DNA of 64,000 nucleotides, from contig JAJSAC010000063.1 in NCBI GenBank assembly GCA_024274915.1, forward strand, positions 1-64,000, read 5' to 3'. Positions 1-9,392 of this stretch are shown piece after piece. The DNA is from Thermodesulfobacteriota bacterium. Its GTDB lineage: Bacteria > Thermosulfidibacterota > Thermosulfidibacteria > Thermosulfidibacterales > B14-G1. The translations under genes and the position numbers were made by a program. A model generated the notes under the pieces. It was not told the DNA's origin and made no database searches. It worked only from the letters and a program-made list of their open reading frames with translations. Position 1 is the first letter of the stretch. Every line of letters begins with the position of its first letter.

Positions 1-3000
1 AATGCCGTGGGCGAGGGGTCCTATGTAGAAGTCACTGACATGGGGGTTGGCATTCTTGGTACAGTGGGGTCTTCGTCTTTCTCCAATAGTGGGGTCATCT
101 CCACCAATGCAGTGGCGGGTAATGCATCTGAGGAAGATTCTTGGGTGTACCTTGGTTGGGGGGACTATTATCCGATCTATGGAGTTCTCTTTGGTGATAG
201 TGTAGGCAGCTTCGACAACAGCGGCACCATATCAGCTATCGCCCAGGCAGGGAGTGCCAGTGGATATGACTCTTATGTGGGTATCGGTGGTGTCTTTGGC
301 ACAATCTTCGGCTATTTCGGAGGTGACGTAGGCAGTTTCACCAACACCGGCACCATAAGCGCCAGTGCGGTGGTGGGTGGTGCCAGCGAATACGGTTCGT
401 GGGTTGAAATATACGACGTCTATGGTGCCTACTTTGGTGGCTATGTAAGTACCTTCACCAACTCGAGTCCGGACACCATCAGTGCCAGTGCAAGCATAGG
501 GGACGTGAGTGGCGAAGATGCCTATGCTGAGATCTGCAGCTACTATGAAGGTTCGGCCGGTGTTACAGGTGCCTACTTCTACTACCCTGTGGGTAGCTTT
601 GAGAACAGCGGTACCATCAGTGCCAGTGCGAGCATAGGAGATGTGAGTGGCTATGATGCTGGTGCTGATATTTACAGTTATTACGAAGGCTCACCAGCAG
701 TAACAGGTGCCTACTTCTACTATGGTGTGGATAGCTTTAAGAACAGTGGCACCATCAGTGCCAGTGCAAGCATAGGGGATGTGAGTGGAGAGGACGCCTA
801 TGCTGAGATCTGCAGCTACGACGATGAGGCTCCTGCTGTGGCAGGTGTGTTTTTCTATGATGAGGTGGGCACCTTCACCAACTCAAGCCCGGACACCATT
901 AGTGCCAGTGCGAGTATAGGGGATGTGAGTGGCGAAGATGCCTATGCTGGGATATGGAGTTATTATTCGCCAGCAGTAACAGGTGCCTACTTCTACTACC
1001 CTGTGGGTAGCTTTGAGAACAGCGGTACCATCTCTGCCAGTGCAAGCATAGGGAACGTGAGTGGCGAAGATGCCTATGCTGAGATCTGCAGCTACGACGA
1101 TGAGGCTCCTGCTGTGGCAGGTGTGTTTTTCTATGATGAGGTGGGCACCTTCACCAACTCAAGCCCGGACACCATCAGCGCCAGTGCAAGCATAGGGGAT
1201 GTGAGTGGAGATTATGCCGATGCTGAGATTTACGGCTACTACGAAGGTTCGCCAGCAGTTACAGGGGCTTACTTCTACTATGGGGTAGATGATTTTGATA
1301 ACAGTGGCACCATTAGTGCCAGTGCGAGCATAGGTGATGTGAGTGGCGATTATGCCTATGCTGAGATCTGGAATGATGACTATGAGGCACCTGCAGTGGC
1401 GGGTGTCTTCTTCTACGATGAGGTGGGTACCTTCACCAACAGTGGAGACATCTTGGCCAGTGCGAGCATAGGCGATGTGAGCGGAGACTATGCCAGTGCT
1501 TACATAGATGGTTACTATGAGGGTTCGCCAGCAGTTACAGGGGCCTACTTCTACTACCCGGTGGGCAGTTTTGATAACAGTGGCACTATCTCTGCCAGTG
1601 CGAGCATAGGTGATGTGAGTGGCTATAGAGCCGATGCTGAGATTTACAGTGATGACTATGATACCGCAGCTGTAGCAGGCGTCTTCTTCTACGATGAGGT
1701 GGGTACCTTTACCAATTCAAGCCCGGACACCATCAGCGCCAGTGCGAGCATAGGTGATGTGAGTGGAGAAGGTGCCTATGCTGGGATTTACGGTTACTAC
1801 GAAGGTTCGCCTGCAGTGACAGGAGCCTATTTCTACTATGGTGTGGACAGCTTTGAGAACAGCGGTACCATCTTGGCCAGTGCGAGCATAGGGGACGTGA
1901 GTGGCGAAGATGCCTATGCTGAGATCTGGAATGATGACTACGAGGCTCCTGCGGTGGCGGGTCTGTTTTTCTATGATGAGGTGGGTTCCTTTAATAACAG
2001 TGGCACCATCAGCGCCAGTGCGAGCATAGGCAACGTGAGTGGCTATGATGCTGGTGCCTGGATTTACAGTTATTACTATTATGCACCGGCAGTAACAGGA
2101 GCCTATTTCTACTATGGTGTGGATAGCTTTGATAACAGCGGTACCATCTTGGCCAGTGCGAGCATAGGCGATGTGAGTGGAGATTATGCCTATGTTGGGA
2201 TTGGGGCTTATGAAGATGAGGCTCCTGCGGTGGCTGGTGTATCCTTCTACGATGAGGTAGGTACCTTCACCAACTCAAGCTCGGATACCATCGGTGCCAG
2301 TGCGAGCATAGGTGATGTGAGCGGCTATGATACCTATGCTGAGATTTCTGGCTACTACGAAGGTTCGCCTGCAGTAACAGGTGCCTACTTTTACTATGGT
2401 GCGGATAGCTTTGATAACAGCGGCACCATCAGCGCCAGTGCGAGCATAGGTGATGTGAGTGGAGAGGATGCCTATGCTGAGATTTACAGTGATGACGATG
2501 ATACCGCTGCTGTAGCAGGTGTGTTCTTTTATGATGAAGTTGGTACCTTCACCAATAGTGGTACCATTTCTGCCAGTGCAAGCATAGGGGACGTGAGTGG
2601 AGATTATGCCTATGCCGGGATTTACGGCTATGACGAAGATGCGCCTGCAGTAACAGGTGCCCACTTCTATTACCCTGTGGGCACCTTTGAGAACAGCGGT
2701 ACCATCTCTGCAAGCGCCCAAATAGGGAATGCCAGTGGGTATGATTCGGAGATTGAGGTGTACGATATCAACGGTATCTACTTTGATGACGAGGTGGGCA
2801 CCTTCACCAATTCAAGCCCGGACACCATCAGCGCCAGTGTTGTGGCGGGTGATGCCAGTGAGACTGATGCCTCAATTCAATTGGGAGAGCCGTTTGATGG
2901 AGTCTACGGTGTAAAGTTTGGAGACTATGTGGACAGTTTCAGCAACAGTGGAACAATAACTGCCTCTGCTCGTGCCGGGGATGCCAGTGGAGAGGATGCC

Positions 3001-4923
3001 ACAGTTGGGATTAGTACTGTTGTGGCAACGGTATTTAATGGAGTGGGGAGTTTCACAAATGAGGGTAATATACACACCGATGTGGTGGTTGGTGATGCTA
3101 GCGGTACCGATAGCTCTGTAAGTGTTGATACAATCGGAGGAGCAGTATTCATGGGAGATGCTGACTCGGTTGTCAACCGCGGCAATATCACCACCTCGGT
3201 CTCTGCAGGAAGTGGCAGTCAGGTTTCGCACGTATCAGCTTTGACCTCTTTTGGGGGATATGCAGATATCACAAACTATGGCAATATAGGGACACAGATC
3301 ACTGTTGGGGCCGATTCCTATGTGGACCATGTGTACGGTGTGCACCTGTGGGGTTCTTACGGCTCCTTTACAAACTATGGCAATGTTTTCCTCTATGTTG
3401 ATCCTATCTTTGTTATAGGTGGTGGGGGCGGCTCTGCAACTGCAGATAGCGCCGCTGGGATCTACGTTGAGAACTCCGAGGTGACTATATCCAGTCCGGG
3501 CACCATCTATCTCTACACGGACATTCCCGATGCAGACATCAGGACCCTGTGGATGAAGGACTCTTACGTCACTTTCCTGGATAAATTTGGGATCGTCTTT
3601 GGCTCCCCTGGCATCACCAAGAGGCCCATATATCTGGATGACATGGGGACCACCCTTGACCTGAACGGTGCCAGGTTGGTTGCCTATGCCGATAGGGACC
3701 TCAAGATCAATCACCCGTATTACCTCATAGAGCTCAGTGATCCCGAGGTGGATACGGTGTCCGATTACTTTGGTGGCCTCATTGATGGTACCAGGAACCC
3801 CGATATCAGCCCCAGTTGGTATGGACCTGCCCGTGGGGAGGATGCGCCGGAGGAAGTGGCGGTTATCTGGAGATATGACCCCCAACACTCCACGGCGGAT
3901 TTGTCCATCCATGCCTCTCAGGTGGTGGCTAGGAACATGATGAGCTTTGTCACCTCCCACCTCATGTATAACAAGCTCCTGTGGTGGGTGACAGAGAAGG
4001 GAGAAGAGGGGAATGTGAAGCTGGCGGACAGCGGCCAGATAGCCACTGAAGCGGGTCCTCCAGTGGCAACGGCGGCATCGACTACCAGGGAGTACAGGAA
4101 CGGTGCCTTCTTCTATCCCGTGTACACCGACGTGGAAGCTGACGATCTGGGTTACGATGCCCATGGCATAGGCTTCACCCTTGGTCTTGAGCGCATGGTC
4201 ACCGATGCTGTGAACGTGGGGATCTTTGGAGGAATCTCCAAGGTGGACGTGAACTTCAACGACTATGATTACGGTGGCATTGACGACGAGCAGGACATTT
4301 ACACCGTAGGGCTCTATGTCAATTACGCCTGTCGTCCCTGGTATCTGGGAATGGTTGCCATGGGCTACGGGGTGCAGCATGACTACGAAGGACGCACAGG
4401 TCCTGACTACAACATGAGGGAGACTGCAGACTACTGGAGCCACGGATTCGAGGGCGAGCTGGTGGGTGGCTATGTCCTGGGAGACCAGAGGAACTGGATG
4501 ATCATGCCCGAGCTGGGAGTGGGCTTCAGCTACTGGAGGGTGGGCGATTACAAGACGGACGCTGACTACTCCAACTGGGACAAGGAGTACGACAGCGAAG
4601 ACGACAGCTACTTCCGCTCCATTGTGGGGCTTACGGGTTTGAAGAGGTGGGTGGTCAAAGACACCAAGATAGACCTGTTGGCCTCGGTGAAATGGGAGCA
4701 GGCGTTGGGAGACAATGATATTTCCATAACCCAGTCCATACCCGGTATAGGCTCCGGTAAAGAGGACGTGGAAGAGGATATTGGAGATACCTCCATAGTC
4801 GGAAGACTAGGCTTGAGTCTGACCATAATGGATAGGGCCAAGCTCAACCTGACCTTCAGGAGCGAGTTCAACGAGGACTATACCGTGTACTCTGGCCGGG
4901 TGTCCCTGGGAATCTCTTTCTAG
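1..4923 (+). CDS. Giant repetitive autotransporter-type outer membrane protein (5'-truncated by window edge)
   Basis: Frame is open from base 1; about 46-aa tandem repeats (SGTISASASIGDVSG...AVTGAYFYYGVDSF) followed by a C-terminal beta-barrel-like region ending ...YSGRVSLGISF with terminal Phe. Confidence 0.85.
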   Translation, partial: NAVGEGSYVEVTDMGVGILGTVGSSSFSNSGVISTNAVAGNASEEDSWVYLGWGDYYPIYGVLFGDSVGSFDNSGTISAIAQAGSASGYDSYVGIGGVFGTIFGYFGGDVGSFTNTGTISASAVVGGASEYGSWVEIYDVYGAYFGGYVSTFTNSSPDTISASASIGDVSGEDAYAEICSYYEGSAGVTGAYFYYPVGSFENSGTISASASIGDVSGYDAGADIYSYYEGSPAVTGAYFYYGVDSFKNSGTISASASIGDVSGEDAYAEICSYDDEAPAVAGVFFYDEVGTFTNSSPDTISASASIGDVSGEDAYAGIWSYYSPAVTGAYFYYPVGSFENSGTISASASIGNVSGEDAYAEICSYDDEAPAVAGVFFYDEVGTFTNSSPDTISASASIGDVSGDYADAEIYGYYEGSPAVTGAYFYYGVDDFDNSGTISASASIGDVSGDYAYAEIWNDDYEAPAVAGVFFYDEVGTFTNSGDILASASIGDVSGDYASAYIDGYYEGSPAVTGAYFYYPVGSFDNSGTISASASIGDVSGYRADAEIYSDDYDTAAVAGVFFYDEVGTFTNSSPDTISASASIGDVSGEGAYAGIYGYYEGSPAVTGAYFYYGVDSFENSGTILASASIGDVSGEDAYAEIWNDDYEAPAVAGLFFYDEVGSFNNSGTISASASIGNVSGYDAGAWIYSYYYYAPAVTGAYFYYGVDSFDNSGTILASASIGDVSGDYAYVGIGAYEDEAPAVAGVSFYDEVGTFTNSSSDTIGASASIGDVSGYDTYAEISGYYEGSPAVTGAYFYYGADSFDNSGTISASASIGDVSGEDAYAEIYSDDDDTAAVAGVFFYDEVGTFTNSGTISASASIGDVSGDYAYAGIYGYDEDAPAVTGAHFYYPVGTFENSGTISASAQIGNASGYDSEIEVYDINGIYFDDEVGTFTNSSPDTISASVVAGDASETDASIQLGEPFDGVYGVKFGDYVDSFSNSGTITASARAGDASGEDATVGISTVVATVFNGVGSFTNEGNIHTDVVVGDASGTDSSVSVDTIGGAVFMGDADSVVNRGNITTSVSAGSGSQVSHVSALTSFGGYADITNYGNIGTQITVGADSYVDHVYGVHLWGSYGSFTNYGNVFLYVDPIFVIGGGGGSATADSAAGIYVENSEVTISSPGTIYLYTDIPDADIRTLWMKDSYVTFLDKFGIVFGSPGITKRPIYLDDMGTTLDLNGARLVAYADRDLKINHPYYLIELSDPEVDTVSDYFGGLIDGTRNPDISPSWYGPARGEDAPEEVAVIWRYDPQHSTADLSIHASQVVARNMMSFVTSHLMYNKLLWWVTEKGEEGNVKLADSGQIATEAGPPVATAASTTREYRNGAFFYPVYTDVEADDLGYDAHGIGFTLGLERMVTDAVNVGIFGGISKVDVNFNDYDYGGIDDEQDIYTVGLYVNYACRPWYLGMVAMGYGVQHDYEGRTGPDYNMRETADYWSHGFEGELVGGYVLGDQRNWMIMPELGVGFSYWRVGDYKTDADYSNWDKEYDSEDDSYFRSIVGLTGLKRWVVKDTKIDLLASVKWEQALGDNDISITQSIPGIGSGKEDVEEDIGDTSIVGRLGLSLTIMDRAKLNLTFRSEFNEDYTVYSGRVSLGISF
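484..2720 (+). repeat. About 16 tandem passenger repeats of ~138-141 bp arranged as an A/B dimer
   Basis: GCCAGTGC(A/G)AGCATAGG recurs about every 138-141 bp; two alternating repeat types in the translation. Confidence 0.9.
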
Positions 4924-4946
4924 ACCTTGGCTTAAGACGGGAGTCA

Positions 4947-4979
4947 AGCCCCCCTCCAAAAAGGGGGGCTTTTTATTTT
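4947..4979 (+). terminator. Rho-independent terminator
   Basis: AGCCCCCCT-ccaaaaa-AGGGGGGCT followed by TTTTATTTT right after the autotransporter stop. Confidence 0.9.
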
Positions 4980-5098: not shown

Positions 5099-5353
5099 CA
5101 GGACTTCCCCCAAAATTCCCTTCCTGGTAAAGGCATCATGTTCAGAATCCTGGATTTTTTCTCTCCAACAAGTGAAAGGGCGGGGCATTCCTCCCTCCCT
5201 TGCCCATGGCTGATAGCTGATGGCTCATGGCTCATGGCTGATAGCAACTGTGAGCTATGAACCATGAACTACGAGCTATGAACTATGAGCTATCATCTCT
5301 GCGTTCGGAACACCCCGCCCTGACCCATAGGACTAAAACTGGGGGAAGTCCTG
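5099..5353 (+). mobile_element. MITE-like element copy 1 (255 bp)
   Basis: TIRs CAGGACTTCCCCCA (5099-5112) / TGGGGGAAGTCCTG (5340-5353); flanking GTGTTTTCC / GTGTTTCCC (8/9 match); homologous to copies at 14277 and 54810. Confidence 0.88.
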
Positions 5354-5431: not shown

Positions 5432-6637
5432 ATGTTGGAGCGGGAGTTTTTGAGGATTAAGAGGCTTCCCCCTTACGTCTTCGCCATTGTGAATGACCTC
5501 AAGTACAAGGCAAGGCGTAGGGGAGAGGATATTATAGACCTGGGCATGGGGAATCCCGACATCCCCACCCCCACCCACATCGTGGACAAACTGGTGGAGG
5601 CGGCCAGGAATCCCAGGAACCACAGGTATTCCAGCTCCAAGGGTATTCCCAAGCTCAGGGAGGCCATTTGCAACTGGTACAAGAGGAAGTTCAACGTGGA
5701 CCTGGACCCTGAGACGGAAGCCATAGCCACCATTGGGGCGAAGGAGGGCATTGCCCACTTCACCCTGGCGGCCCTGAGGCCCGGGGATGTGGCTCTGGTG
5801 CCCACTCCCACCTATCCCATTCACGCCTATTCCATTGTGATAGCTGGGGGCGATCTGAGGAGTGTGCCCCTTCTGAATGGCACAGACTTCTTCGAGAGCC
5901 TTATGAAGGCTGTGCGCCAGACCTGGCCTGTGCCCGAGATGCTTATTCTGAGTTTTCCCCACAATCCCACCACCAAGGTGGTGGATATGGAGTTCTTCTA
6001 TAAAGTGGTGGACTTCGCTAGGGATCACGACATCATTGTGGTCCACGACTTTGCTTATGCTGAGCTGGTTTTCGATGACTATTGCCCTCCCTCCATTCTC
6101 CAGGTTCCCGGGGCTAAAGATGTGGCGGTGGAGTTTTATTCCCTCTCCAAGACCTATTCCATGCCTGGATGGCGGGTGGGTTTCATGGTGGGCAACTCCA
6201 AACTGGTGGAGGCCCTGGCCAAGCTGAAGAGTTACTATGATTATGGCATCTTCCAGCCCATCCAGATCGCCGCCATCGTTGCCCTTAATGGTCCCCAGGA
6301 GTGCGTTAAGGAGATCGTGGATACCTATAGAAGAAGGCGAGATGTCCTGGTAGACGGCCTGAATCGCATAGGTTGGAGAGTGGAGAAGCCTAAAGGCACC
6401 ATGTTTGTATGGGCCGAAATCCCGGGCGAATATAAACACATGGGTTCTCTGGAGTTTTCCAAGTTTCTCCTGAAGGAGGGTAAGGTGGCGGTCTCTCCCG
6501 GCATTGGCTTTGGTTACAACGCCGACGACTATGTGCGGTTTGCTTTGGTGGAAAATGAGCAGCGGATTCGCCAGGCCCTGAGGGGTATGAAGAAAGTCTT
6601 AACCCTGGGGGAGAAAAAGAAATGGGTGGCCGTGTGA
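5432..6637 (+). CDS. alaC: PLP-dependent alanine/aspartate aminotransferase, AlaC-like
   Basis: Full-length similarity to class I/II aminotransferase Ala[27 protein letters not shown]. Confidence 0.85.
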
Positions 6638-9285: not shown

Positions 9286-9287
9286 GA

Positions 9288-9392
9288 GAGGCTAAGGGCT
9301 AAGGACGAAGGGCTGGAGGCTAAAGGCTAGAGGCTAAAGGCTAGAGGCTAAAGGCTAGAGGCTAGAGGCTAAAGGCGAAGGGCAGAGGGTAG
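9288..9392 (+). repeat. Heptanucleotide tandem array, 15 units of RRGGCTA type
   Basis: GAGGCTA AGGGCTA AGGACGA AGGGCTG GAGGCTA AAGGCTA GAGGCTA AAGGCTA GAGGCTA AAGGCTA GAGGCTA GAGGCTA AAGGCGA AGGGCAG AGGGTAG, 105 bp with no phase break. Confidence 0.95.

Follow-up and report, generated by a model that had tools for sequence, protein, structure and literature searches.

The first gene of the window (the whole 64,000-nucleotide stretch of DNA that was analyzed) encodes a putative surface protein whose repeat units are of two types, A and B, and follow one another in strict alternation. This order raises the question of whether the folding of the protein demands that the types alternate, or whether the alternation is a trace of the recombination by which the gene grew. 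We favor the latter, and consider it fairly likely that a solenoid was lengthened by recombination in two-unit steps, with a constant block exchanged across types, to form a surface rod. The features on which the argument depends are the following.

1 to 4923, plus strand: autotransporter gene, truncated at its 5' end by the contig edge; open frame from window base 1, with 1640 codons present.
C46, positions 3 to 1373, minus strand: 5' part of the autotransporter gene, from a search of the same genome; 457 more codons with a signal peptide-like start.
70 to 477, plus strand: diverged units of the predicted solenoid, about 39-44 aa, 5' of the array (motif segmentation; 49-51% identity to the array).
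478 to 2703, plus strand: array of 16 units in the order A-ABABABABABABABA (TRF, segmentation and lag identity).
478 to 753, plus strand: the sole break of alternation, with type A in both unit 1 and unit 2.
754 to 897, plus strand: unit 3, the first of type B, with the tail DDEAPAVAGVFFYDEVGTFTNSSPDT; 98% identity between its variable part and that of unit 5.
796 to 1175, plus strand: 104-bp exact repeat (796-899 and 1072-1175), at a distance of 276 bp.
2566 to 2703, plus strand: unit 16, a hybrid that combines a type A tail with a B-like loop (DEDAP) (segmentation).
2704 to 3423, plus strand: diverged units of 38-45 aa, 3' of the array (motif segmentation); control region for AF2, predicted to be the same type of solenoid.
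3424 to 4131, plus strand: passenger end and linker to the barrel, mostly (from 3481) conserved with a homolog in genome G370.
4132 to 4854, plus strand: autotransporter beta-barrel (PF03797; Pfam E = 2e-28; genome search).

Contig C56, whose first base is also that of the window, belongs to a 2.03-Mb genome in 77 contigs. On contig C46, the frame starts with a basic stretch followed by FPLVLAFLTLLLTGPLAYA-QF, which was judged by eye to be signal peptide-like, continues through about nine diverged units, and runs off the contig end. The relatives G005, G007 and G008, which belong to the same order, have murA and prmC directly divergent to alaC. In the window genome, C46 carries prmC and murA, and C56 carries alaC, located after the autotransporter gene. 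Given this synteny, C46 and C56 are presumably neighbors, with the autotransporter gene inserted between these flanking genes, and the synteny supports joining the two pieces as one gene. Between the ends of the two contigs, no overlap reaches 9 bp, and therefore a stretch of the gene is presumably missing between them.

The barrel match spans positions 14-253 of the 255 in the Pfam model and stops 22 residues short of the C-terminus. Judged by this domain layout, the protein is a classical type Va autotransporter of about 2,100 residues or more, predicted to be displayed via its own barrel. The barrel lies in the same chain as the array, and the earlier note was right to call the array an autotransporter passenger. 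The passenger itself has no Pfam or NCBIfam family match, and no Pfam match to the chlamydial Pmp repeat (PF02415) was found up to an E-value of 1.

Several observations concern the surroundings of the gene. Third-position GC content is lower in the array (478-2703), at 0.51, than in the barrel region (0.70) or in three further genes of the window (0.64-0.70). Just past the stop codon, at 4945-4975, a GC-rich inverted repeat is followed by a T-run; this feature, found by eye, is likely a terminator. Heptanucleotide tandem repeats detected by TRF occur between genes at 5205-5293 and 9287-9392 (ATGGCTG / AACTATG; AGGCTAA). Upstream of the autotransporter start on C46, and overlapping it by 4 bp (ATGA), is a 160-aa ORF (L005 1370-1852, minus strand) that resembles LTXXQ/Spy-type periplasmic chaperones, with a PF07813 match (E = 0.041) that is below the cut-off. 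No relative of this ORF was found within the order, and the ORF and the autotransporter gene possibly form a chaperone-autotransporter operon. The region upstream of alaC (window 5432-6637, L024-L029) differs among relatives: in G002 it carries genes for a 1240-aa subtilase-like protein and a repeat protein, and in G003 and G004 other genes.

Units were cut by using the ISASASIG motif, which yielded 16 units of 44-48 aa. TRF places the array at 474-2706 and scores a period of 276 best (8.0 copies, 77% matches, score 1903); its second period is 138 (16.1 copies, 68% matches, score 1510). From unit 2 on, A and B alternate strictly over 15 units, an order expected by chance in 1 of 6435 random arrangements of eight A and seven B units. 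Nucleotide identity between units is 0.79 at even lags versus 0.69-0.71 at odd lags, and A+B dimers measure 276 or 282 bp. Thus, both the unit count (about 16, of 44-48 aa) and the strict alternation from the second unit that had been read from the letters are confirmed. The span given earlier (484-2720) is corrected to bounds of 478 and 2703, and the proposed dimer length of about 276-280 bp holds for dimers of 276 bp but not for those of 282 bp.

Each unit comprises a constant first block of 12 residues (ISASASIGDVSG, columns 0-11) and type-specific loops (YYEGSP or DDEAP). In the diverged unit immediately 3' of the array, nucleotide identity is 68% to the B tail versus 52% to the A tail, and B therefore looks ancestral-like and A derived. 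From unit 5 on, the ends of B units (window 1030-2565) are SSPDT or SSSDT in units 5, 9 and 13 versus SG in units 7, 11 and 15. A four-unit period, at which these endings hint, was rejected because identity at lag 4 (.790) is not above that at lag 2 (.792), and a TRF period of 420 bp (69% matches) was set aside as evidence.

An order of this kind could be spurious if mis-assembled short reads had created the alternation or altered the number of units. The fragmentation of the genome, the contig edge that breaks the gene 477 bp before the array, and the lack of overlap between the C46 and C56 ends are all compatible with such an artefact. However, the open frame is intact across its 1640 codons, and only two exact repeats in the array reach 45 bp (104 bp at a distance of 276, and 54 bp at 414), so that a single one exceeds 54 bp. 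Since the copies have diverged and the exact repeats are short, the copies can be told apart with reads of normal length, and we regard an assembly artefact as very improbable. Collapse or mis-ordering in particular was rejected, because the exact repeats are too short. The 104-bp repeat itself is presumably the latest dimer-step copy.

The history of the array was assessed at four-fold sites. In the tail (columns 27-47), values are.66 for A-A pairs,.60 for B-B pairs and.47 for A-B pairs (permutation p = 2e-4). A signal at such sites indicates that A and B are distinct by descent, and not through protein selection alone. At four-fold sites of the variable part, units at even lags are likewise more alike than neighbors (p = 4e-4), and units of the same type that lie two apart show a slight excess of similarity (p = 0.049), which local copying predicts. 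In the constant block, the corresponding values are.63 for A-A,.65 for B-B and.68 for A-B, with no A/B structure. The A/B distinction is thus confined to part of the unit.

One account of these data assumes a single A-B dimer whose constant blocks were identical and which was copied whole, with no exchange of blocks afterwards. It predicts the strict order and the 276-bp period, and the equal identity of A and B constant blocks follows if both copies were identical at the start. If so, however, neighboring A and B units should share a history. Their trees are not congruent, either for columns 12-47 (Mantel r = 0.08, p = 0.38; r = -0.50, p = 0.99) or for the tail (r = 0.00, p = 0.43; r = -0.31, p = 0.94), although with seven dimers these comparisons have low power. 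Nor are constant blocks linked to the tails of the units in which they lie (r = -0.02, p = 0.55; again of low power). The closest constant blocks are frequently of opposite type: those of A10 and B15 are the same over 36 bp, and A8/B13 and B3/A6 are at a distance of 0.03. On this evidence, limited in power as it is, whole-dimer copying without later exchange is unlikely. One homogenization of the constant block just before the array grew could also explain the uniformity of that block.

Recombination in two-unit steps combined with exchange of the constant block remains our preferred explanation. Part of the solenoid would have grown through homologous recombination between misaligned copies, and when copies recombined, the shifts would have been mainly of two units (276 bp). 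With two kinds of tail present during growth of the array, such two-unit shifts would preserve the A B A B order of the tails. The constant block would be traded among all units, whatever their type, which would make the array a mosaic of blocks rather than a row of intact dimers. The earlier proposal that the dimer is the amplified unit is thus borne out in part: the two-unit period is dominant, even at synonymous sites of the tail. However, the constant block lacks A/B structure and the histories of neighbors are uncorrelated, which suggests that blocks underwent reshuffling in addition to duplication.

To consider what the fold might contribute, we turn to structure predictions, both of which were made by AF2 from small alignments that included the array sequence. 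Units 5-10 were predicted with a pLDDT of 93.8 and four strands per 46-aa unit. In the diverged units after the array (pLDDT 89.8), the 38-39-aa units have three strands each, and the long strand is unbroken. AF2 over-predicts solenoids and gives confident but false models for near-perfect repeats (PMC11795689); the diverged units are not near-identical to one another. A beta-solenoid, as the earlier note proposed, is likely for the passenger. Searches with the solenoid fold against PDB and viral structures gave no E-value below 0.001 and no convincing match, and a PDB sequence search returned chance matches only.

The models suggest roughly one coil per unit of 38-48 aa, a reading based on strand counts and on a distant homolog whose unit measures 26-27 aa. 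The simplest reading of the type-specific loop is that it sits inserted in the long strand of the coil. With one coil per unit, A and B would be successive rungs that have the same faces and an axial period of two rungs, and not the two distinct faces of the solenoid that had been envisaged.

If A and B are successive rungs, selection on the fold might hold the alternation: A and B coils would pack on each other, B on B would stack acidic residues, and only alternating arrays would be stable. Acidic residues in the same column number 6.6 per B-B pair, 2.5 per A-A pair and 1.95 per A-B pair, and in columns 21-47 the counts are 4.9, 1.6 and 0.7, respectively. The sole pair of neighbors of one type in the array is A-A; B-B pairs do not occur. 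However, the overlap of acidic columns between A and B is about what random placement gives, as estimated from column counts, and the A/B signal at synonymous sites is explained by common descent, and not by protein selection alone. A homolog without alternation, described below, also argues against fold selection, which we consider rather unlikely. Still less credence is given to the stricter proposition that packing requires A and B rungs to alternate and that the gene can lengthen only in two-rung steps; if true, a structural rule would fix the recombination register of a tandem array.

In a profile search of 386 genomes, one further homolog was found, a 1252-aa protein in G370 (L042:6035-9793) that has 31% identity across passenger and barrel (E = 4e-116). 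Like the window protein, it has a modular unit with a constant block and a variable tail: its units, of 42-55 aa, have a near-invariant first block. Similarity of first blocks drops with distance, from.84 at lag 1 to.55 at lag 7. Copies that are exact over 99, 92 and 68 bp occur at a spacing of 132 bp, which is one unit. From these patterns, the G370 array has a homogenized constant block, was apparently spread by single 132-bp units, and has no alternation. The fold therefore does not demand alternation, and the two-unit register is not a property of the family. A need for selection, which had been offered as one means of keeping the alternation, is thus not supported, given a homolog with the modular unit but with expansion by monomer steps. 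Unlike the window gene, the G370 gene grew in one-unit steps and has a prmC-like gene, not an LTXXQ-like gene, directly upstream (L042:6035-10743). That prmC is also nearby in the window genome may be chance.

Other relatives are few. The C-terminal part has partial or weak matches in G396, G097 and G132, and one scan gave a distant autotransporter match in Roseibium sediminis. Eight relatives of the same order have no PF03797 barrel, and the gene was not found in them. A scan of genome contigs with the C-terminal 480 aa revealed no relative, and tblastn against plasmids gave no match.

Type Va autotransporters with beta-helical passengers include pertactin, Ag43 and the chlamydial Pmps. The window protein resembles them in its C-terminal PF03797 barrel, its signal peptide-like start, and its repetitive passenger, which is predicted to be a beta-solenoid. 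Passenger coils are usually shorter than 38-48 aa. The window protein differs from these proteins in its longer units (38-48 aa) and in its near-identical array with a two-unit period, and its passenger matches no passenger family in Pfam or NCBIfam. In chlamydial Pmps, the FxxN/GGA repeat is one coil (PMC11166332), and the FxN-SGTI unit of the window protein is comparable to it.

Among LRR proteins, the solenoid repeats of ribonuclease inhibitor, SLRPs and TLR7-9 form a larger recurring unit, and duplication of this unit is given as the explanation (cited in PMC2946307). The principle of a higher-order unit is common to both cases, but the LRR fold differs, and the likeness is one of principle alone. 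Periscope proteins (PMC9704523) and BadA (PMC8859334) are surface rods whose length changes via recombination of tandem repeats, with copy-number variation shown by long reads. By comparison, length change in the window array is inferred from one assembly, and BadA, unlike the window protein, is a trimeric (type Vc) autotransporter. Higher-order units in solenoids and length change by repeat recombination are thus already known, and the passenger is a further case in a familiar type of protein.

The function would probably be that of a long rod, adjustable in length by steps of two rungs, which holds a surface with an adhesive or protective role away from the outer membrane. The array provides a clean natural case in which blocks of one unit evolve under different rules, with one pool for the constant block and two pools for the tail. 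Together with its homolog in G370, it could be used to test whether recombination or folding sets the register of repeats in surface proteins.
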